DNA of 64,000 nucleotides, taken from an uncultured SAR86 cluster bacterium (GTDB taxonomy: Bacteria > Pseudomonadota > Gammaproteobacteria > Magnimaribacterales > D2472). A program made the translations under genes and the position numbers. The stretch covers positions 401,938 to 465,937 of the forward strand of contig CAJIYI010000001.1 in assembly GCA_905181595.1 (NCBI GenBank), written 5' to 3'. The notes under the pieces were generated by a model that was not told where the DNA came from, made no database searches, and was given only the letters and a program-made list of their open reading frames with translations. This document shows positions 4,024-52,859 of this stretch, piece after piece (the stretch's first letter is position 1; every line of letters begins with the position of its first letter).

Positions 4024-5283
4024 ATGGAAAAATTAAAAATCATTGGCGGCAATAGGTTATCTGGCATAATTTCCTGTTCTGGTGCAAAGAATGCTGCTTT
4101 GCCAATGCTTGCCGCAACCATTCTCACTGACAAACCAGTCACTTTCAAAAATCTCCCCTATCTTCAAGATATTACAACTATGTTTGAGATTTTAGGCTCT
4201 ATGGGAGCTGATATTACTCTTAACGAAAATATGGATTTTAGAATTTCAACAGCCAATCTTCATGATTTTGAAGCTCGCTACGAACTAGTTAAAACTATGC
4301 GCGCATCTATATTAGTTCTTGGTTCGCTAGTTGCGCGTCATGGGTTTGCCAGAATCGCCTTACCAGGAGGATGTGCCATTGGCACAAGACCAGTTGATTT
4401 CCATTTATCTGCACTAGAGCAGCTTGGTGCAAAGATTGAACTAAAAAATGGTTACATAGAAGCAAGCGCAAAAAAATTAATTGGATGTGAGATAAGCTTT
4501 CCTGGAATATCTGTCACTGGCACTGAGAACATAATGATGGCTGCTGTTTTGGCAAAAGGACAAACGATATTGCGTAACGTTGCGAAAGAACCAGAGGTTG
4601 AAGATTTAGCAAAATTTTTAAACTCCATGGGTGCGCAGATCTCGGGCGCAGGAACTGATGAAATTACTATCAATGGCGTAGATGATCTTACTGAGTCTAT
4701 CTTTACTATTCCTGCTGATAGGATTGAAGCTGGCACTTATTTGATTGCAGCTGCCGTTACATATGGAGATATTGTAATTCAAGATATTAATGCAAATAGG
4801 ATGAATAATATTTTAGATAAACTTAAGCTTAGTGGTGCTCTCATAGAGACCACCGAAAATAGTATTAGTTTATCCATGCCTCATAATTCAATACATTCGG
4901 TAGATATCTCCACCGCTCCTTTTCCAGGCTTTCCCACTGACATGCAGGCTCAATTTACCGTTTTAAATGCATTATCTAATGGATCAGCAGTAGTTACAGA
5001 AAATGTCTTTGAAAATAGATTTATGCATGTTCAAGAATTAAATCGTATGGGTTGTGATATTACAGTCAAGGGAAGTAATGCATTTATAAAAGGGGTAAAT
5101 CATTTAACAGGAGCGCCTGTAATGGCAACTGATCTGAGGGCATCGGCTAGCTTAATATTAGCCGGCTTATGTGCAGATGGAGAGACAATTGTTGATAGAA
5201 TTTATCATATTGATCGTGGTTACGAACGCATTGAAGAAAAGCTCTCATATTTGGGAGCTGATATTGCTAGATTACCGGGTTAA
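4024..5283 (+). CDS. murA: UDP-N-acetylglucosamine 1-carboxyvinyltransferase MurA
   Basis: First committed step of peptidoglycan synthesis: transfers enolpyruvate from PEP to UDP-GlcNAc in the cytosol. The 419 aa match the family. SGAKNAALPMLAA at about 19-31 holds the conserved Lys-Asn pair. The fosfomycin-reactive cysteine is Cys117 in PGGCAIGTRPVDFH, so it is a Cys-type, fosfomycin-sensitive-type enzyme by motif. TDLRASASLILAG near the C-terminus is also typical. It follows ibaG by 3 bases. Its TAA stop overlaps the stop of the convergent degS gene inside a shared TTAA at 5280-5283. Confidence 0.97.
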   Translation: MEKLKIIGGNRLSGIISCSGAKNAALPMLAATILTDKPVTFKNLPYLQDITTMFEILGSMGADITLNENMDFRISTANLHDFEARYELVKTMRASILVLGSLVARHGFARIALPGGCAIGTRPVDFHLSALEQLGAKIELKNGYIEASAKKLIGCEISFPGISVTGTENIMMAAVLAKGQTILRNVAKEPEVEDLAKFLNSMGAQISGAGTDEITINGVDDLTESIFTIPADRIEAGTYLIAAAVTYGDIVIQDINANRMNNILDKLKLSGALIETTENSISLSMPHNSIHSVDISTAPFPGFPTDMQAQFTVLNALSNGSAVVTENVFENRFMHVQELNRMGCDITVKGSNAFIKGVNHLTGAPVMATDLRASASLILAGLCADGETIVDRIYHIDRGYERIEEKLSYLGADIARLPG

Positions 5284-6278
5284 TTTGTTTGAGCCCTGGT
5301 CACTAAATCTTTTTTAATAATTTTATTCTCCTGGATAATCTCAAGGGATATCTCATCCCCAGGAAAAGAATTTCTTAGAGCGGCAGTGAGATTTTCCCAC
5401 GATGCAGCCTCAGTATTAATTGAAATAATAATAGCGCCAAGTTTAATGTCGGCACCTTCGAATAGGGGACCTTGTTCCTTTAACTCTAAAATTTCCAATC
5501 CGTAAACCAACTCATTATCAAGAACAAACCTTTTGTATTTCACCCTGAAGTCTCCTATCCATGATTGCTGAACAGATCCGTATTTTATTATTTCAGAAGC
5601 AACTTCAATCATTTTGTTTGAAGGCAGAGCAAAGCCAATTCCGGCATAGGACCCAGTTTTTGAAAAAATTTTTGTATTCATACCGATAAGGTTACCCCTA
5701 TGATTTAGTAGCGCTCCTCCTGAATTTCCAGGGTTAATAGCCGCATCTGTTTGGATAAGTTCAAGGTATGGATTTCCATAATCTCTTCCAGTTGCACTAA
5801 CTATGCCGCTGGTAAATGTTTTACCGAGCCCAAACGCATTCCCAATTGCAAATACCTCATCGCCAACACGAATACTTTTACTATTTGCTAGCTTTATTGG
5901 TGCTAAAGGTTCTTGAGAAGTAATTTTAATGACAGCTAGATCTGATCTTTGATCATAGCCTATTACATTTGCAATTCTAATCCGACCATCATCTAGCTCA
6001 ACATTAATTTCTTTTTTGCGATCAATGATATGCAGATTTGTAATGATGTAGCCATCGTCAGAAATAATAATGCCCGAACCCACTATCTCTTGATTTTCTC
6101 GCACTCGGTATCCTGAAGATGCAGAAGAGTTAGTGGCAATGATATTAACTACCGAGAGAGCAGCTTTGCTTATTCCCGCTGAATTTTTGCTATTAGACAT
6201 ATCTGTATAAAGATATGGGAGAATAACCAGAAGAATTAAAAAATTTATTCTCGAAAGTTTATTATTCAAAAATTTCAT
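5280..6278 (-). CDS. degS: Membrane-anchored serine protease DegS/AlgW type
   Basis: Trypsin-like HtrA protease that senses misfolded outer-membrane proteins and starts regulated proteolysis of the anti-sigma factor RseA. It has 332 aa with one N-terminal membrane anchor (about residues 11-25), a protease domain and a single C-terminal PDZ domain (about 230-325). One PDZ plus an anchor fits DegS rather than DegP or DegQ. The triad is His83 (NLHII), Asp113 (RSDLAV) and Ser186 (NPGNSGGAL). It lies between murA and zapE, close to the E. coli degS-zapE arrangement. Only 19 bases separate its start from the divergent zapE start. Confidence 0.9.
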   Translation of the reverse strand: MKFLNNKLSRINFLILLVILPYLYTDMSNSKNSAGISKAALSVVNIIATNSSASSGYRVRENQEIVGSGIIISDDGYIITNLHIIDRKKEINVELDDGRIRIANVIGYDQRSDLAVIKITSQEPLAPIKLANSKSIRVGDEVFAIGNAFGLGKTFTSGIVSATGRDYGNPYLELIQTDAAINPGNSGGALLNHRGNLIGMNTKIFSKTGSYAGIGFALPSNKMIEVASEIIKYGSVQQSWIGDFRVKYKRFVLDNELVYGLEILELKEQGPLFEGADIKLGAIIISINTEAASWENLTAALRNSFPGDEISLEIIQENKIIKKDLVTRAQTN

Positions 6279-42632: not shown

Positions 42633-43640
42633 ATGTCAGATAAAGATAAAAACCTAACAGAGACGCTTTCACAGATAGAAAAGCAATTTGGAAAAGGAAC
42701 AGTAATGAAAATGGGCGATCGTGAAATAGTCGATATGCCTTGTGTATCAACCGGCTCAATCGGCTTAGATATTGCGCTTGGAATTGGGGGTTTGCCTCAA
42801 GGGCGTGTTGTAGAAATTTTTGGCCCTGAGTCATCAGGGAAGACTACATTAACCCTTCAAGCTATTGCAGAGTGTCAGAAAGCTGGTGGTACGGCAGCGT
42901 TTATCGATGCCGAGCATGCACTAGATCCTAATTACGCTTCAAAGCTTGGAGTGAATGTTGATGAGCTTCTTCTCTCGCAACCAGATACTGGCGAACAAGC
43001 TCTTGAAGTTACTGATATGTTAGTTAAATCAGGAAGTGTTGATTTGATAGTTATAGATTCAGTTGCTGCTTTAACTCCAAGAGCCGAGATTGAAGGAGAC
43101 ATGGGCGATCATCATATGGGCTTACAGGCGAGATTAATGTCTCAAGCACTTAGAAAAATTACAGGTAATATTCAAAGATCCAATTGCATGGTAATTTTTA
43201 TTAACCAAATTAGGATGAAAATCGGAGTCATATTTGGTAACCCAGAGACAACTACTGGCGGTAATGCATTAAAATTTTATTCATCAGTTCGATTGGATAT
43301 TCGTCGAATAGGAGCAGTTAAAGAGGGTGAAGAGGTCGTGGGAAATGAGACTCGCGTTAAGGTTGTTAAAAATAAGGTCTCACCCCCATTCAAACAAGCC
43401 GAATTTCAAATTATGTACGGTGAGGGTATTAATGTTGAAGGCGAGATTCTAGAGTTTGGCCAGAAATTAGAGTTAATTGAAAAATCCGGATCTTGGTATA
43501 GCCATAATGGAGAGAAAATCGGTCAAGGGAAAGTAAATGCAAGTAAGTATCTTAAAGAGAATCCAAAGATTCGTGATAGCTTAATGAAAGAAATTAAGAC
43601 AGCTTACATACCCTCCATTAACAAGTCAGCTAAAAAGTAA
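42633..43640 (+). CDS. recA: Recombinase RecA
   Basis: ATP-dependent strand-exchange protein and coprotease for LexA. The 335 aa contain Walker [10 protein letters not shown] (about 67-75), the Glu-containing [13 protein letters not shown], Walker [23 protein letters not shown] (about 140-161), and the DNA-binding loops around [14 protein letters not shown] and [20 protein letters not shown]. There is no intein. A LexA box precedes it. No recX follows; a thiolase gene comes next. The common mutS neighbour is absent. Confidence 0.98.
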
Positions 43641-44885: not shown

Positions 44886-46169
44886 TTATTGATTTTTGAA
44901 ATGTTCAAAGATTGAGGTAATTTCAGTGATATTGTTTATTGAGCTTTGACCATTCCTATGCTTTAGCTCAACTTCCCCCGACTCTAAAAAATTATTCCCT
45001 ATAATTATATTGACTGGTATGCCAATTAATTCAGCATCTTTCATCTTGGTACCATAGCCATCTTTTCTATCATCTAGGATTACTTCATAGCCCATAACTT
45101 GCAGTTGCTCACTTAAGTTGTTTGCAGCTTCAGCAATTTTTGGTTCCTTGGTATAACCAATAGCGACAATATTTACTTCATATGGCGCAATTGATTCTGG
45201 CCATAAGATACCTTTGTCATCATTATTTTGCTCAATTGCGGCAGCAACAAGTCTTGATACTCCAATCCCGTAACAGCCCATAAATAAATCAACAGCCCTG
45301 CCTTCTTGATTTAACACGTTAACTTTCATTAACTCTGTATAGATTTTTCCTAGCTGAAAGATGTGACCAACTTCAATACCTTTTTTAATCTCAATAACCC
45401 CATTCCCATCAGGAGATGGCTTGCCTTCTAGAGTGCTAATATCTTGCTCCCTCATCTCAGCAATAGCTCTGTATTTATTGCAAATTCAGATGCATCACTA
45501 ATAGCTATAGTATCTTCACCATTTTCCGCCAATACATGAAATTCTTCTGAGGCATCTCCACCAATTGCACCAGAATCTGCCTTTACTATTTTATATTCTA
45601 GGCCAATTCTTTCTAGAATTTTTTTATAGGTATTCCTCATTAGGAGATATGTTTCTTGTAATGAAGCCTCATCAATATTGAAACTATATGAATCTTTCAT
45701 TAAAAATTCTCTACCCCTCATTACGCCATACCTTGGTCGAATTTCATCTCTAAATTTTGTTTGAATTTGATAGATATTTAACGGAAGTTCTTTATAGCTC
45801 TTTACATTATTTCTTACTAAGTCTGTGATGACCTCTTCGTGAGTAGGGCCCAAGCAGAAATCTCTATCATGCCTATCCTTAAATCTTAATAATTCTGGTC
45901 CCATTTTCTCCCAGCGCTTTGTCTCTTCCCATAATTCTTTTGGATGCACCATAGGCATCAAGACCTCCTGTGCTCCAGATTGATCCATCTCGTCTCGCAC
46001 AATATTCTCTATTTTACGAAGAACCTTTAATCCCAATGGAAGCCAAGTGTATATTCCCGACGAGACCTTTCTGATCATCCCGGCTCTGAGCATTAGTTGA
46101 TGGCTAATTACTTCAGCATCCTGAGGTGAATCTTTTAAAGTTGGTATGAAAACTCTTTGACCAAAACAT
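44886..46169 (-). CDS. proS: Prolyl-tRNA synthetase, short form without editing insertion (two apparent frameshifts)
   Basis: Charges tRNA-Pro. It is split over three frames. The true N-terminus ([20 protein letters not shown]) has a fitting ATG at 46169 one base out of frame, restored by removing one T from TTTT at 46163-46166. The main N-terminal part ([59 protein letters not shown]) runs to a stop at 45452. The C-terminal part ([12 protein letters not shown]-like, [27 protein letters not shown]-like) continues in another frame from about 45470. The 180-residue INS editing domain is absent between FAINTE and [18 protein letters not shown]. With both bases corrected it is about 427 aa, like alphaproteobacterial enzymes. 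Confidence 0.88.
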
Positions 46170-46530: not shown

Positions 46531-48285
46531 ATGCGATCACACTACTGCGGGGATATTCAAAGTTCAGATATTGGTGCAGAGGTTGAGATTTCAGGCTGGG
46601 TTCACAAAAGAAGAGATCATGGAGGTGTTATTTTTTTAGATATCAGAGATCTACATGGAATAGTGCAGGTAGTTTTTAATCCAGAATCTAAAGATACATT
46701 TGACCTTGCAGATTCATGCAGAAGTGAGTTTGTTATAAATATCAAAGGCTTAGTAAGGGCAAGGATTGAAGGAGCGATCAATCCAAAGATGGCAACAGGT
46801 GAAATTGAGATTGAAGCCCAGAGCTTGATCATTTACTCCAAAGCATTAACGCCTAAGTTCCCTTTGGATGATTATCAAGAGGTCAATGAAGATGTTAGAT
46901 TAAAAAATAGATTTCTTGATTTAAGAAGGCCGGATGTTAATGATAGATTGATCAAAAGATCAAAAATTACTTCAAAAATTAGATCAGTTTTAGAGTCAAA
47001 TAATTTTCATGAGATTGAAACTCCAATCTTAACAAGAGCGACGCCAGAAGGCGCTCGTGATTATTTGGTGCCTAGCAGAGTCCACCCGGGTGAATTCTTT
47101 GCTTTACCTCAATCACCTCAACTATTTAAACAACTTTTAATGATAGGTGGCCTGGATAAGTATTATCAAATTGCCAAATGCTTTAGGGATGAGGATTTGC
47201 GAGCAGACAGACAGCCTGAATTTACTCAAGTTGATATAGAAGCTTCATTTGTCACCACTGAAGATATTATAAATTTGGGAGAGGATCTTATTACCTCTTT
47301 ATTGGCTGAATTCACAAACTACGAACCCATCGAAGTCCCTCGCATTAAATATAAAGATGCTATTACTAAGTATGGTTGCGATAAACCAGATCTTAGAATT
47401 CCATTAGAGCTTGAAGATATTTCTGAGCTTATGAAAAATGAAGAATTTAAAGTATTTTCTGGACCGGCAAATGATCCGAAGGCAAGAGTGGTTGCGCTTC
47501 GTGTTCCAGGAGCAGCTGAACTTACCAGAAAGAAAATTGATGAATATACTGATTTTGTAGGGAAGTTAGGCGCAAAAGGATTAGCGTATATCAAAGTGGT
47601 AGCCTTGGAAGAAGAAAACGGTCTCCAATCCCCAATTTTAAAATTCCTTGATCAAGCAACTGTTAATTCAGTAACTTCCGCCCTTAAAGTTGAAAACGGT
47701 GACATGATTTTCTTTGGTGCGGGCAATGCCAATGTAGTTAATTTATCTATGAGCTCCCTTATAAAAAAACTAGCTGATGATCTAGACCTTTATGTATCTG
47801 AATGGGCGCCTTGCTGGATCGTTGACTTTCCTATGTTCGAGAGAACCAAGGAAAATAAATTAACTTCTTTGCATCATCCCTTTACGCTTCCAGTCGTAAC
47901 TATTGACGAACTTGCTAACAATCCAGATGAGGCGCTGGCTTGTGCCTATGATTTTGTGTTGAACGGATATGAGTTAGGTGGAGGTTCTTTAAGGGTCCAC
48001 GATCCAGTAATGCAGAGTGAGATATTTAAGATACTCGGAATCTCATCAGAGGAAGCGGACGAAAAATTTGGGTTTTTATTATCTGCCTTATCTTCTGGTT
48101 GCCCGCCGCATGGAGGTATTGCTTTTGGATTAGATAGAATAGTTATGCTCCTGACAGGCACAACCAATATAAGAGACGTGATAGCATTCCCTAAAACACA
48201 AAGTGCCTCCTGCTTGCTAACAAATGCCCCTGGAGAGGTTACTCTCAGCTCAACTAGAGGAGTTACACGTGCAATCAACGGTTGA
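46531..48285 (+). CDS. aspS: Aspartyl-tRNA synthetase
   Basis: Class II synthetase for tRNA-Asp. The 584 aa have an N-terminal OB fold ([22 protein letters not shown] about 20-41), motif 1 near [20 protein letters not shown], motif 2 near [19 protein letters not shown], the bacterial GAD insertion domain (about 280-420), and motif 3 [16 protein letters not shown] (about 528-543). A good ribosome-binding site (AAAGGAAG) precedes it. yebC follows after 13 bases. Confidence 0.98.
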
Positions 48286-48298
48286 GAAGGAATAGATT

Positions 48299-49039
48299 AT
48301 GGCAGGACATTCAAAATGGGCCAATATTAAACATCGCAAGGCTAGACAGGATGCATCTAGAGGCAAGATTTGGACTAAAGTAATAAGAGAAATTACAGTT
48401 GCTGCAAAAGGTGGCCCTGATCCAGATGATAATCCCAGGTTAAGATTAGCATTGGATAAAGCAAATGCTTCTAATATGCCGAAAGATACTATCAAACGAG
48501 CAATACAAAAAGGCTCAGGTACTGGTGAAATGGGCATAATTGAAGAGCTTGTTTTTGAAGGGTATGGACCTAATGGAGTTGCTATTTTAGTTGAGACTAT
48601 GACTGACAATAGAAATAGAACAGTAGCCGATGTGCGTCATGCTTTTTCTAAGTTTGGAGGGAATATGGGGACTGATGGTTCCGTAGCATATTTATTCAAC
48701 AAACTTGGCGTAATTCATATTGCAAACTCCTATGAAGAAGACTTTATTATGGAGGTAGCTTTAGAGGCAGGAGCAGAAGACTTTGTGGTTACTGAAGACT
48801 ACTTTGAAATTATCACCACCCCAATTAACCTTTCTGATGTCGCTGCAGCTTTGCAAGAAAAAGATATAGAAACTTTAAATGCTGAAACAACCATGAGAGC
48901 AGAAACATTAGTTCATCTCGATCAAGAAGCATCAGAAAAAGTTCTAAAAATTATGAATTTTATGGATGACCTAGATGATGTCCAAGAGGTTCATACCAAT
49001 GCTGAATTCCCAGATGATTTTGTTGATGAAGAGGCATAG
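48299..49039 (+). CDS. yebC: YebC/TACO1-family protein
   Basis: A 246-aa member of the YebC/PmpR/TACO1 family, variously described as a transcriptional regulator or a factor that helps translate proline-rich stretches. Diagnostic blocks are AGHSKWANIKHRKARQDASRG (residues 2-22), ASNMPKDTIKRAIQKGSG and EGYGPNGVAILVETMTDNRNRTV. It lies after aspS, as in Pseudomonas, where ruvCAB would come next. Here a different nuclease gene follows. Confidence 0.96.
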   Translation: MAGHSKWANIKHRKARQDASRGKIWTKVIREITVAAKGGPDPDDNPRLRLALDKANASNMPKDTIKRAIQKGSGTGEMGIIEELVFEGYGPNGVAILVETMTDNRNRTVADVRHAFSKFGGNMGTDGSVAYLFNKLGVIHIANSYEEDFIMEVALEAGAEDFVVTEDYFEIITTPINLSDVAAALQEKDIETLNAETTMRAETLVHLDQEASEKVLKIMNFMDDLDDVQEVHTNAEFPDDFVDEEA

Positions 49040-49041
49040 TC

Positions 49042-49464
49042 TTGGCAATTAACTCAAGAACAAAAGGGGCTAATTTTGAAAGAGAAATTGGTAACTTGTT
49101 GGTGCAAGAGCTCAATCTAACCCAGCCTGTGAAAAGGATTTTAGAGCAAACAAGAACAAAGGAATTACCTGATCTTAAATTAGGGCGCTGGTGCATTGAA
49201 TGCAAGAGGTATGGTGATGGTGCGGAGCCTTCAGCAGAATGGTGGGATCAGGTTTTAGCTGCAACTCCCCCTGGAGAATTTCCAGCATTAATTTATAAAT
49301 TTAATCGCAGACCAATCAAAGTTAGAATTTTAGCAGGTACATTAGTCCCGGAATTAGATTTTTCTCCAATGACCATTGATCTAATGTGGGAAGATTACAT
49401 TGAAATTCTTCGCTACCTTTTTCAAGTAGATATCGAGCAACATGAAGCCTCTATTCAAGTGTAA
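49042..49464 (+). CDS. PD-(D/E)XK-type nuclease, Holliday-junction-resolvase-like, in the ruvCAB position
   Basis: A 140-aa protein starting at TTG 49042, 2 bases after yebC. The layout matches small PD-(D/E)XK nucleases: SRTKGANFEREIGNLL (Glu13 or Glu15), a strand ending in PDL (Asp44), then WCIECKRY (Glu53, Lys55), and an aromatic WWDQV helix. Similar proteins are annotated in phages as Holliday-junction resolvases. Its 3' end overlaps ybgC by 23 bases. In relatives, yebC is followed by ruvC-ruvA-ruvB and then ybgC, so this gene replaces that block. Resolvase activity is inferred; a restriction or repair nuclease is possible. Confidence 0.72.
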   Translation: MAINSRTKGANFEREIGNLLVQELNLTQPVKRILEQTRTKELPDLKLGRWCIECKRYGDGAEPSAEWWDQVLAATPPGEFPALIYKFNRRPIKVRILAGTLVPELDFSPMTIDLMWEDYIEILRYLFQVDIEQHEASIQV

Positions 49465-49852
49465 CGACTTTATTTGCAAGATTTTTGTTGAAGACACGGA
49501 TTTTCAGGGCGTGGTTTATCACGCCAATTATCTCAAGTACTTTGAAAGATCTAGATCTCAATTTTTAGCAGATCACCACCTCTCTCAGACTGATGCATTG
49601 CTAAACATGGAATCATATGTCGTTAAAAAAATAGATTTAGAATTTTGTACACCAGCAAAACTTGAGGATACATTAATCATAAAAACCAATGCAGTGCTTG
49701 CAAGCAAGGCTCGCATACAATTTCTTCAGTCAGCTGTTAATCAAAAAAATGATACACTCATTTGCAAGGGACTGGTTGAGGTTTGTTACTTAGATAGTAC
49801 CAAAAATAAACCAAAAGCTTTTCCTGATAGCTTATTAGCTCTATTTAGGTAA
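49442..49852 (+). CDS. ybgC: Acyl-CoA thioesterase YbgC
   Basis: Hotdog-fold thioesterase at the head of the tol-pal operon; in E. coli it acts on short acyl-CoAs and binds acyl carrier protein. The 136 aa contain VEDTDFQGVVYHANYLKYFERSR (the family signature with catalytic Asp18), then a standard hotdog strand pattern. The signature has Phe where Ala or Gly is common in the DTD-x-x-GVV part. It starts within the previous nuclease gene; tolQ follows after 5 bases. Confidence 0.94.
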   Translation: MKPLFKCNDFICKIFVEDTDFQGVVYHANYLKYFERSRSQFLADHHLSQTDALLNMESYVVKKIDLEFCTPAKLEDTLIIKTNAVLASKARIQFLQSAVNQKNDTLICKGLVEVCYLDSTKNKPKAFPDSLLALFR

Positions 49853-49857
49853 TACAC

Positions 49858-50538
49858 ATGGAAAACTTTTCAATCATAGATTTATTTCTTCAAGCCAGTC
49901 TTATTGTCCAGTTGGTTATGATCGTATTACTTGTGGTTTCAGTCTTATCCTGGATTGTAATTTTTGAAAGATATTTTAATTTAAATAAAATCAAAGCAGC
50001 TAATAGGGCATTCGAAGATCAATTTTGGTCTGGCGAAGATTTAAATGAGTTATATGAGATTGTTGGAAATATTCCTCGCGATGAATTGACTGGGTCAAGA
50101 AATGTTTTTAAGCATGGCTTCAGAGAATTTCTGAGATTGGCGGATGGTCAAAAAATTTCCATCGAAGATTTGGAGAGTGTCAATCGCGCCATAAGAGTTT
50201 CGTTGGCAAGAGAAGAAGATTCATTGATGAAGCACTTACCCTTTTTGGCAAATGTTGGTTCTGTTAGTCCATATGTAGGGTTATTTGGAACAGTCTGGGG
50301 AATAATCAATTCATTTCAAGGTCTTTCCGATGCAACTCAAGCAACCATCAATGCTGTAGCTCCGGGTATTTCTGAGGCGCTAGTTGCAACTGCATTAGGG
50401 TTATTTGCTGCAATACCAGCAGTCGTTGCCTACAATCGTTTTGCTTCTGAATCTGACTCTCAGCTTCAGCAATCTTCAATATTTGGTGAAGAGCTTGCCA
50501 GCATACTTTACAGACAAACTGTCAAAGAAAAGAATTGA
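49858..50538 (+). CDS. tolQ: Tol-Pal system proton channel subunit TolQ
   Basis: Inner-membrane protein that uses the proton motive force with TolR to drive TolA during constriction. The 226 aa have three transmembrane helices (about 11-37, 130-160, 170-195). The family region PFLANVGSVSPYVGLFGTVWGIINSFQGL (about 129-157) and APGISEALVATALGLFAAIPAVVAYN are typical. The stop overlaps the tolR start by 4 bases. Confidence 0.97.
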   Translation: MENFSIIDLFLQASLIVQLVMIVLLVVSVLSWIVIFERYFNLNKIKAANRAFEDQFWSGEDLNELYEIVGNIPRDELTGSRNVFKHGFREFLRLADGQKISIEDLESVNRAIRVSLAREEDSLMKHLPFLANVGSVSPYVGLFGTVWGIINSFQGLSDATQATINAVAPGISEALVATALGLFAAIPAVVAYNRFASESDSQLQQSSIFGEELASILYRQTVKEKN

Positions 50539-50957
50539 TTTACCGAATTGGCAAGAGAAAAAAGCTCAATGCAGAAATTAATGTAGTTCCATACATTGAT
50601 GTGATGCTTGTATTGCTCATAATTTTTATGGTTTTATCTCCTCTGCTTATTCAGGGTATCGAGGTAAATTTACCTAAAACAGACACCACTAAAATGTCTA
50701 TTTCTAGCGAGCCTTTAGTTATTTCTATAGATGCAAAGGGTGAATACTTTCTTAATCTAGGAGAGGAGCAGCTACCAATTTCATTAATGGAATTGAAGAG
50801 CAAAGCCAAGATCATTTATGAGGCTAATCCAGAAATTGAAATTGTATTTAAGAGTGACTCAAAGGTACCATTTGATTTTGTCGCAAAGGGAATGGCGAGC
50901 ATTCAAAGTTTAGGAATACAGAAAATTGGTATTGTGACTTCAGGTTATGACAGCTAA
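50535..50957 (+). CDS. tolR: Tol-Pal system protein TolR
   Basis: Bitopic partner of TolQ. Starts at TTG 50535, overlapping the tolQ stop. The 140 aa have one helix (about 19-37) with the proton-conducting Asp in the membrane motif: INVVPYIDVMLVLLIIFMV (Asp23). The periplasmic domain follows. An alternative later start would cut into the conserved helix, so TTG is preferred. tolA follows with an 11-base overlap. Confidence 0.95.
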   Translation: MIYRIGKRKKLNAEINVVPYIDVMLVLLIIFMVLSPLLIQGIEVNLPKTDTTKMSISSEPLVISIDAKGEYFLNLGEEQLPISLMELKSKAKIIYEANPEIEIVFKSDSKVPFDFVAKGMASIQSLGIQKIGIVTSGYDS

Positions 50958-51579
50958 CTTAAGATATCTCAATGCCTCTTTTTTTTCATTTTGCTTTCAT
51001 GCAGCAATTTTTCTATATTTATATGGGACGTTTAACAGCAACTCATCACAAAATCTGTTAATTTCAAAACCATTGCAAGTAGAGCTCAAGTTTGAATCTG
51101 AGATTAAGTCAGCTAAGCAAGAGACTGTGAATCCTAAATCCCTTGATAGCCGTCAGATGCAAAAACAAGTCACCCAAGCAGCTGCATTGGAATCAAGCGA
51201 ATTAAGGCTAGCCATTGAAGAAAGTATGCTTTATTCCAATCTATCAGACTTATTAGAACAAGAAGAAAGTATCAGTCTGTCTCAAGAGCAGGAGCAAATA
51301 TTTTTTTATAGCCAAAAAATTATTAACACCATAGAAAATGCTTGGATGAAACCAAGAAATATCCCTGAGGGCTTAGTGGCTAATTTAAGACTGCATATTC
51401 TGTCAACTGGCCGTATCTCTAAGGTGTATCTTATCAAAAGTAGTGGCAATATTCGATTTGATAACTCTGCACTTCAAGCTGTCCGGAGGGTGGAAACTCT
51501 AAATTTTTTCAACGAAATACCGTCCTCACTTTATAAAAAAGAGTTCAAGAAAATAGCAGTTAGCTTCAAACCATCATGA
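50947..51579 (+). CDS. tolA: Tol-Pal system protein TolA
   Basis: Inner-membrane protein whose C-terminal domain reaches Pal and TolB at the outer membrane. At 210 aa it is much shorter than in E. coli (421 aa), because the long alanine-rich helical domain is almost absent. It has one N-terminal transmembrane segment (about 9-25), a short polar linker, and a TonB/TolA-type C-terminal domain (about 115-205; NTIENAWMKPRNIPEGLVANLRLHIL at the start, IRFDNSALQAVRRVE). The call rests on that domain and position between tolR and tolB. Confidence 0.88.
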   Translation: MTANLRYLNASFFSFCFHAAIFLYLYGTFNSNSSQNLLISKPLQVELKFESEIKSAKQETVNPKSLDSRQMQKQVTQAAALESSELRLAIEESMLYSNLSDLLEQEESISLSQEQEQIFFYSQKIINTIENAWMKPRNIPEGLVANLRLHILSTGRISKVYLIKSSGNIRFDNSALQAVRRVETLNFFNEIPSSLYKKEFKKIAVSFKPS

Positions 51580-52859
51580 AAAAAATATCTCTTTTTGCAT
51601 TATTTGTTTTGCCTTTATTTTGCGCAAGCGAACTTTTTCTAGAAATAACTAAGGGCTCGGAGGATCCATTTAAAGTGGCAATGATCCCTTTTGCTGGAAA
51701 TGCAAGCGTGTCTAAAAAATTAAATAAAGTTATCCGCAATGATTTAAGTAGAACAGGTGAATTTTCTTTGCTTGATGAGCGTCTATTACTCCCGCTTGAA
51801 GTAGAAAATGAGGAGATTAACTACCAAGATTGGAGACTGCTTGGAATGGATTATCTGGTAGTAGGCAATATTGTTAAAGAAAAGAACTCTATTGATGTGA
51901 GTTATGAGATTTACGATATACAAAAAAGACGAAAAATTCGAAGCTCAAAAGTATTTGGATTACCAAATCAACTTAGGCAGCTTGCTCATTACACCAGTGA
52001 CGGCATATATGAATCAATTGCAGGAATTAAAGGTATTGCCTCAACTAAGCTTCTTTACGTGAATGAAATTAAATCAGAGGATATTAAATCTAGATATCGT
52101 TTGATGTTAGCTGATTCAGATGGCGCAAATGAACAGACTCTTTTGAGTAGCTCAGAGCCAATTATCTCTCCGTCTTGGTCTCCAGATGGTAAAAAGGTTG
52201 CATATGTATCATTTGAAACAGGCTTAGCTAAAGTTTATATTCAAAATATTGCTTCCGGAAAGAGGGAATCAGTTCTCTCCAAGAATACTCAAATTAGCTC
52301 TCCATCTTGGTCTCCAGATGGTAAGTACTTATCTTTAACTATCTATCAAGATGGGAATGCTGAGATATATATTCTTCGATTAAGGGACAAAACATTAACT
52401 AGGATGACTAATCAATTTGCAATTGATACAGAGTCCTCATGGTCACCAAAGGGCAATAAAATACTTTTTACAAGCGGGAGATCAGGATCTCCTCAAATTT
52501 ATGAATTAGATTTAAGAAGATTGAATTCCAAAGCTAAGAGAATTTCTTTTGAAGGAAGTTACAACGCCAAGGCTAGCTATCTTCCGAACGAGGAAGGGAT
52601 CATCTTTGTTCATCGCTCAACAGATGGTTTATTTCATATAGCGCTTAAATATAAAAAAGAAAACTTTATAAGAATATTAACTGAAGCAAAGATGGACGAA
52701 TCTCCAAGTGTTGCTCCGAACGGTAATATGGTAATCTATGGAATAACTGAAGGAGATCAAAGCATGCTTGCAGGCTTTAGCTTGAGCGGCGCAACTTTTA
52801 AGCTGCCAGCATCTAAAGGAGAGGTCAGAGAGCCCGCTTGGTCAAATTTTTTAAGATAA
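51576..52859 (+). CDS. tolB: Tol-Pal system translocation protein TolB
   Basis: Periplasmic protein that binds Pal and cycles with TolA. The 427 aa start with a signal peptide (about 1-17). A mixed N-terminal domain (about 30-160) follows, then a six-bladed beta-propeller with PD40 repeats (SPSWSPDGKKVAYVSFE, SPSWSPDGKYLSLT, ESSWSPKGNKILFTSGR, VAPNGNMVIYG). The start overlaps tolA by 4 bases. The N-terminal TolA box is divergent and not confidently located. Confidence 0.95.
   Translation: MKKISLFALFVLPLFCASELFLEITKGSEDPFKVAMIPFAGNASVSKKLNKVIRNDLSRTGEFSLLDERLLLPLEVENEEINYQDWRLLGMDYLVVGNIVKEKNSIDVSYEIYDIQKRRKIRSSKVFGLPNQLRQLAHYTSDGIYESIAGIKGIASTKLLYVNEIKSEDIKSRYRLMLADSDGANEQTLLSSSEPIISPSWSPDGKKVAYVSFETGLAKVYIQNIASGKRESVLSKNTQISSPSWSPDGKYLSLTIYQDGNAEIYILRLRDKTLTRMTNQFAIDTESSWSPKGNKILFTSGRSGSPQIYELDLRRLNSKAKRISFEGSYNAKASYLPNEEGIIFVHRSTDGLFHIALKYKKENFIRILTEAKMDESPSVAPNGNMVIYGITEGDQSMLAGFSLSGATFKLPASKGEVREPAWSNFLR

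Follow-up and report, generated by a model that had tools for sequence, protein, structure and literature searches.

We analysed a 64,000-nucleotide stretch of DNA (the window) from the genome of an uncultured SAR86 gammaproteobacterium (1.41 Mb in 2 contigs, 87.6% complete). Its yebC and ybgC genes enclose a gene for a small PD-(D/E)XK nuclease, at the position where other Gammaproteobacteria carry ruvC, and this nuclease and the ruv genes that it may have displaced are the subject of this study. The features of the locus are as follows:

49042..49464, plus strand: PD-(D/E)XK nuclease gene at the ruvCAB position, a candidate Hjc-like Holliday-junction resolvase (TTG start, 140 residues)
49078..49080, plus strand: codon of Glu13, motif I, in the KGxxFER of helix 1; invariant in alignments A1 (33 rows) and A2 (45 rows)
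49171..49173, plus strand: codon of Asp44, motif II (PDL); Asp44 is invariant in A1 and A2, Pro43 in A1 only
49198..49206, plus strand: codons of Glu53-Cys54-Lys55, motif III (ExK); Glu53 and Lys55 do not vary in A1 or A2, and Cys54 hardly varies in A2
48299..49039, plus strand: yebC (PF01709/PF20772), directly upstream; adjacent to the nuclease gene in 49/49 and 80/80 loci of two overlapping sets
49442..49852, plus strand: ybgC-type thioesterase gene (PF13279/PF03061), overlapping the nuclease gene by 23 bases
49858..52859, plus strand: tolQ-tolR-tolA-tolB, the cluster found after ruvC in relatives (from open reading frames and gene order in the loci)
46531..48285, plus strand: aspS, a conserved upstream neighbour (from the open reading frame and gene order in the loci)
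42633..43640, plus strand: host recA (PF00154, E 4.7e-145), approximately 5.4 kb upstream of the nuclease gene

Alignment A1 consists of the window protein and those of 32 of the 48 other SAR86 nuclease loci, picked for diversity, and A2 of the window protein and 44 of 58 distinct viral open reading frames (ORFs), drawn from 72 of 80 viral loci. The motif letters E13, P43-D44-L45 and E53-C54-K55 stand where an earlier interpretation made from the DNA letters alone (the sequence-only reading) had placed them, and A1 shows 2 further conserved blocks, WWxQV and PALxYKF. That reading had also given junctions of 2 and 23 bases on either side of the gene. The first is indeed a gap of 2 bases, between the end of yebC at 49039 and the nuclease start at 49042, but the second is an overlap with ybgC (start 49442) rather than a spacer, and tolQ begins at 49858. 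As had been claimed, the ORF list holds no ruvC, ruvA or ruvB between yebC and ybgC in the window. A Pfam scan identifies the upstream neighbour as YebC (E 6.5e-55) and the downstream one as 4HBT_2, a YbgC-type thioesterase (E 1.6e-15). By gene order we take the next 4 ORFs to be tolQ-tolR-tolA-tolB, and ORF 46531..48285 is presumably aspS. Within the genus the start codon of the nuclease gene varies between ATG, GTG and TTG at the same position. A chance ORF is excluded by the conservation of the gene in 177 of 199 genomes of the order, together with a nonsynonymous divergence (dN) well below the synonymous one (dS).

The window protein matches PDDEXK_15 (PF24608) with 27.2 bits, a narrow pass of the curated cut-off of 27, and all 45 rows of A2 match the same family at E up to 1 (best 1.4e-20). 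An AlphaFold model of the 140-residue protein is confident, and its nearest solved folds are archaeal Hjc-type Holliday-junction resolvases. The model is of the alpha-beta type, with a helix at residues 5-24 and strands at 45-47, 50-57 and 80-87, and it shows both the Hjc fold and a PD-(D/E)XK core with E, D and ExK in place. The small PD-(D/E)XK protein recognised by the sequence-only reading is therefore borne out by the family match, the predicted core and the invariant E-D-ExK residues, the core being evident from profile and structure model alike. By contrast, the archaeal-type Hjc profile PF01870 did not match the window protein at E up to 1 in the Pfam scan; it matches 2 of the 45 A2 rows (best E 3.1e-4), and hhalign to the SIRV2 resolvase gave Prob 0.4-0.5. 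PF24608 was the only family returned by the Pfam-A scan at E up to 1, leaving RuvC (PF02075) and RusA without a match, and the protein does not fit the RecU profile. In the PHROG database it matches PHROG_244, labelled either "putative PDDEXK endonuclease" or "RusA-like Holliday junction resolvase"; we dropped the second label at face value, there being no Pfam RusA match and the fold being Hjc-like. No PADLOC anti-phage defence family was matched at E up to 1, and no NCBIfam family by any of the 4 proteins scanned. Sequence searches of solved structures returned 5 matches for A1, at E 0.5-0.9 and all unrelated, and none for A2. From the fold and from what is known of Hjc enzymes, we infer that the nuclease cuts junctions.

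No intact ruvCAB was found elsewhere in the host genome. Profile searches returned no match there to RuvC, RuvB_C or RuvA_N, and the absence that the sequence-only reading had suspected from the locus extends to the whole order: RuvC (PF02075) and RuvB_C (PF05491) are each found in 0 of 199 genomes and RuvA_N (PF01330) in 2 (G118 and G020), and none of the 3 is found in the 40 genomes that are 90% complete or more ("good genomes"). Six of the genomes consist of a single contig (G003, G005, G006, G008, G012 and G030). The RuvC, RuvB_C and RuvA_N models match 8, 10 and 10 of 14 control genomes, respectively. Neither RuvA_N match was accepted as a SAR86 RuvA. That of G118 (locus L226, contig G118:C98) is an isolated ruvA with a transporter-like gene next to it, likely on a foreign contig, in a genome 73% complete and 3% contaminated, and the 3 other drawn genomes of its genus gave no match; that of G020 lies below the cut-off. 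Four weak RuvB_N matches in the host (E 8e-5 to 2.5e-4) were likewise rejected as true RuvB, since the best, which is the one we inspected, lies within a dnaX-like ORF and RuvB_C is found in 0 of 199 genomes. The dnaX-like gene (L001:72-1692, contig G000:C1, minus strand) consists of a 376-residue ORF closely followed by a 157-residue ORF resembling the C-terminal part, and the split stems either from an indel in the assembly or from programmed frameshifting like that of Escherichia coli dnaX. Across the class, RuvC was found in 260 of 275 drawn genomes, the 15 without it being all 4 of the SAR86 genomes and 11 of the 271 others. Those 11 also lack the nuclease described here.

The nuclease itself is present in 177 of the 199 genomes, in all 22 genera and in 38 of the 40 good genomes of the order, while outside SAR86 it was found in 3 of 271 class genomes, all 3 of which carry RuvC. 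Six of the 22 genomes without it were inspected, including both good ones (G046 and G054). In these two, and in G041 and G168, the contig stops short of where the gene should lie; that of G133 shows no more than recA and the adjoining gene. In the sixth (G089, locus L254 on contig G089:C8) the match to SAR86 runs to aspS residue 470, after which the conserved order is lost, reflecting a misassembly or a rearrangement. Where the locus could be followed, yebC immediately precedes the nuclease gene in 49 of 49 loci from 4 families (one locus being the window and two coming from one genome), and ybgC follows the nuclease gene in 47. In the other two, both of family f4 (L045 and L046), tolQ comes next, with no ybgC found in between. 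The order yebC-nuclease-ybgC also holds in 80 of 80 named contigs (80 kept of 100 confirmed), a set that shares many genomes with the 49 loci, so that the two counts are not additive. The arrangement seen in the window is shared by its relatives. In comparisons with 8 loci of the same genus, dN is 0.04-0.12, and dS is 0.96-2.2, near saturation, in 6 pairs and undefined in 2; the level of identity is about that of yebC and above that of ybgC.

For comparison, we considered 20 RuvC-bearing genomes of the class, a non-random set taken from the listed rows, with ruvA and ruvB outside the searched gene set. The nearest searched gene before ruvC is yebC in 18 of these, ybgC or tolQ comes after ruvC in 16, and both flanks are of this kind in 14. 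The SAR86 locus is the same gene string with the nuclease replacing ruvC and the stretch after it, a stretch that is presumably ruvA-ruvB, and the assignment to the ruv locus made by the sequence-only reading stands. Order-wide retention, low dN/dS and the overlap with ybgC fit a core gene of the order.

Homologues of the nuclease occur in 26 phage records, at identities of up to 41%, and viral contigs hold at least 552 relatives; we kept the best 80. For each of the 2 nearest viral groups one contig was scanned. The first (L066, 57% identical) has tail-fibre, holin and virion genes and the second (L067, 49%) virion and endolysin genes, and because of these genes both contigs are phages; in neither is the nuclease placed among recombination genes. 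Neighbours of the viral relatives were collected in a third set, A3 (117 of 129 listed neighbour ORFs, near-copies excluded), which matched 95 PHROGs, one protein being able to match several. Among the 25 listed, the largest families with an assigned function are RecE-like exonuclease (8 members), exonuclease VIII (5) and primase-helicases (5); DNA polymerases (3) and a single-stranded DNA (ssDNA)-annealing protein (3) also occur. The neighbour genes of the window were found in none of the kept viral loci, nor in the 4 class loci searched alongside. By eye, loci L062, L063 and L065 contain helicase-, terminase- or SSB-like ORFs. In a midpoint-rooted tree built from few columns, the SAR86 rows and 5 phage rows form one starred clade (100/99) within a larger phage set. 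The phage relationship suggested earlier is therefore supported by the PF24608 and PHROG kin and by the position among phage rows; because the root is a midpoint, the direction of transfer, from phage to host, is one we infer. The L066 row (IMGVR_UViG_3300009603_000058, 4995-5417; the nuclease 57% identical to that of the window) has a long branch and falls inside the SAR86 rows, in a starred group of 23 rows (99/96) in which its exact place is weak (92/57), which suggests a later movement from host to phage, or a phage of SAR86.

Taken together, we consider it probable that a phage-derived, Hjc-like PD-(D/E)XK junction-resolving endonuclease replaced ruvC-ruvA-ruvB in place in the ancestor of SAR86 and has been a core gene since. 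The phage gene would have taken the place of ruvCAB between yebC and ybgC-tolQ and would then have been inherited across the order. Most simply, the replacement was one event in one ancestor, and the spread of the gene through the order shows retention and not repeated choice. Judging by the fold and by known Hjc enzymes, the nuclease would act as a homodimer, bind four-way junctions arising from RecA or from fork reversal, hold Mg2+ via Asp44 and Glu53 and introduce two paired nicks. Loading would be independent of a RuvAB motor, which archaeal and phage resolvases do not need. Branch migration, if needed, could be provided by RecG where present; in genera without RecG it could depend on another translocase or be spontaneous.

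What weighs against this reading is YqgF, which is present in 54 of 55 SAR86 genomes searched, including the host, so that the nuclease is not the sole candidate resolvase. The idea of the sequence-only reading that a phage-type resolvase stands in for RuvC is supported by the fold, the phage kin, the slot and the loss of RuvABC, but the nuclease shares the role of candidate with YqgF. It could instead come from a phage but serve some other housekeeping purpose, e.g., fork clean-up, as a branched-DNA or flap nuclease, with junctions left to YqgF/RuvX or to a helicase-topoisomerase pair. The roles of PD-(D/E)XK folds are many. Moreover, a 2005 survey of 117 bacterial genomes reports only ten without both RuvC and RecU and suggests YqgF or prophage resolvases for these (PMC1193525), and Deinococcus YqgF is termed a putative resolvase in a 2022 abstract (PMC9601230). 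We nevertheless find this explanation unlikely: according to the same survey, YqgF accompanies RuvC or RecU in most bacteria (PMC1193525), so that its presence accounts for nothing particular to SAR86; junction resolvases are the closest solved folds; and the gene lies exactly at the site of ruvCAB loss. Considerably less plausible is a passenger, i.e., a restriction-like or anti-phage nuclease that settled in the gap left by an independent ruv deletion, given the lack of a PADLOC match, the retention in all 22 genera with dN low relative to dS, the compact overlap with ybgC and the invariant catalytic residues. Finally, that RuvABC is present but was missed through gaps in the genomes or divergence of the genes is barely credible, since, although many genomes are incomplete (the host included) and one SAR86 bin (G118) has a clear ruvA, none of the 3 profiles matches any of the 40 good genomes, 6 single-contig genomes were among those searched, the models do match controls and the syntenic site is taken by the nuclease.

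Of the possible partners, RecA is found in 179 of 199 genomes and in all 40 good ones, and with recA present strand exchange is kept in the host. The host RecG is full-length (670.6 bits, cut-off 659.4). The RecG profile, TIGR00643, matches 199 of 199 genomes, since other helicases match it too; the matching frames of approximately 980-1100 residues are presumably Mfd. The RecG wedge domain PF17191, an imperfect marker that detects 8 of 14 controls but not Caulobacter, is present in 130 of 199 genomes. In 5 genera of the host's family (g2, g3, g4, g5 and g9, with 33, 1, 17, 10 and 3 genomes, 64 in total, counted by hand), the best TIGR00643 match has E 6.5e-111, compared to E 1.3e-176 or lower for near-whole-profile matches among those listed. 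PF17191, judged from the complete list of matches, is absent from 62 of these 64 genomes, and the other two have marginal matches with internal stops. Completeness reaches 90% or more in 15 of the 64, one of them the single-contig G006, and the nuclease was found in 56. RecG thus appears to have been lost in 5 SAR86 genera that are also without RuvABC. The wedge domain is also absent from 7 scattered genomes of other genera, two of them at 90% completeness (G043 and G047). Branch migration via RecG, as the sequence-only reading had proposed, could apply in the host but cannot hold across the order, since with 5 genera apparently lacking it RecG cannot be the general partner. We put at about even the chance that a RecA-proficient, free-living order resolves its junctions with one phage-derived Hjc-like enzyme and no RuvAB, five genera doing so without RecG as well and hence with no dedicated branch-migration helicase of the RuvAB or RecG type.

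The phage proteins of PDDEXK_15 (PF24608)/PHROG_244 are homologous to the SAR86 nuclease, with the same invariant residues and the same size; they are phage genes, often among recombination and replication genes, whereas the SAR86 gene is a chromosomal core gene at the ruv locus. RuvC of other Gammaproteobacteria occupies the same slot, after yebC and before ybgC-tolQ, but works with RuvAB, and its RNase H-like fold is unrelated to that of the nuclease. RecU is of the PD-(D/E)XK type. From archaeal-type Hjc and the phage enzyme Hjc_15-6 (PMC8805305) the nuclease differs in having no Pfam Hjc match, in its conserved WWxQV and PALxYKF blocks and in its gammaproteobacterial host, the likeness to Hjc being set by the fold. 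Replacement of RuvC by an unrelated resolvase is already known, RecU of Firmicutes likewise being a different enzyme in RuvC's job, and prophage resolvases have been suggested where both RuvC and RecU are absent (PMC1193525). New here would be the in-place, order-wide swap of all 3 ruv genes, with RecG also apparently lost in part of the order. Our literature search found nothing on RuvABC or Holliday junctions in SAR86, which is weak evidence of novelty given that most subscription journals lie outside its scope, and within the same scope nothing on a phage PDDEXK protein together with "RusA-like Holliday junction resolvase"; by titles and abstract openings, none of the listed SAR86 papers on DNA repair and RecA has junction processing as its subject. 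Few parts of bacterial recombination are as conserved as RuvAB with RuvC or RecU, and if one phage-type gene does serve for 3 ruv genes across an order, this core is dispensable in free-living bacteria. SAR86, which is abundant in the surface ocean, may then untangle recombined DNA in a much simpler way, and its RecG-less genera would offer a natural experiment on whether recombination can do without RuvAB- or RecG-driven branch migration altogether.

Elsewhere in the window (44886-46093, minus strand), a gene that is presumably proS (prolyl-tRNA synthetase) runs over two ORFs whose frames differ. The parts are in one frame in 71 of 71 SAR86 loci in which both were found, and the split in the window is likely an assembly indel or a young lesion. 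Because the spacing between the parts is short, the editing insertion domain of this enzyme seems to be absent.
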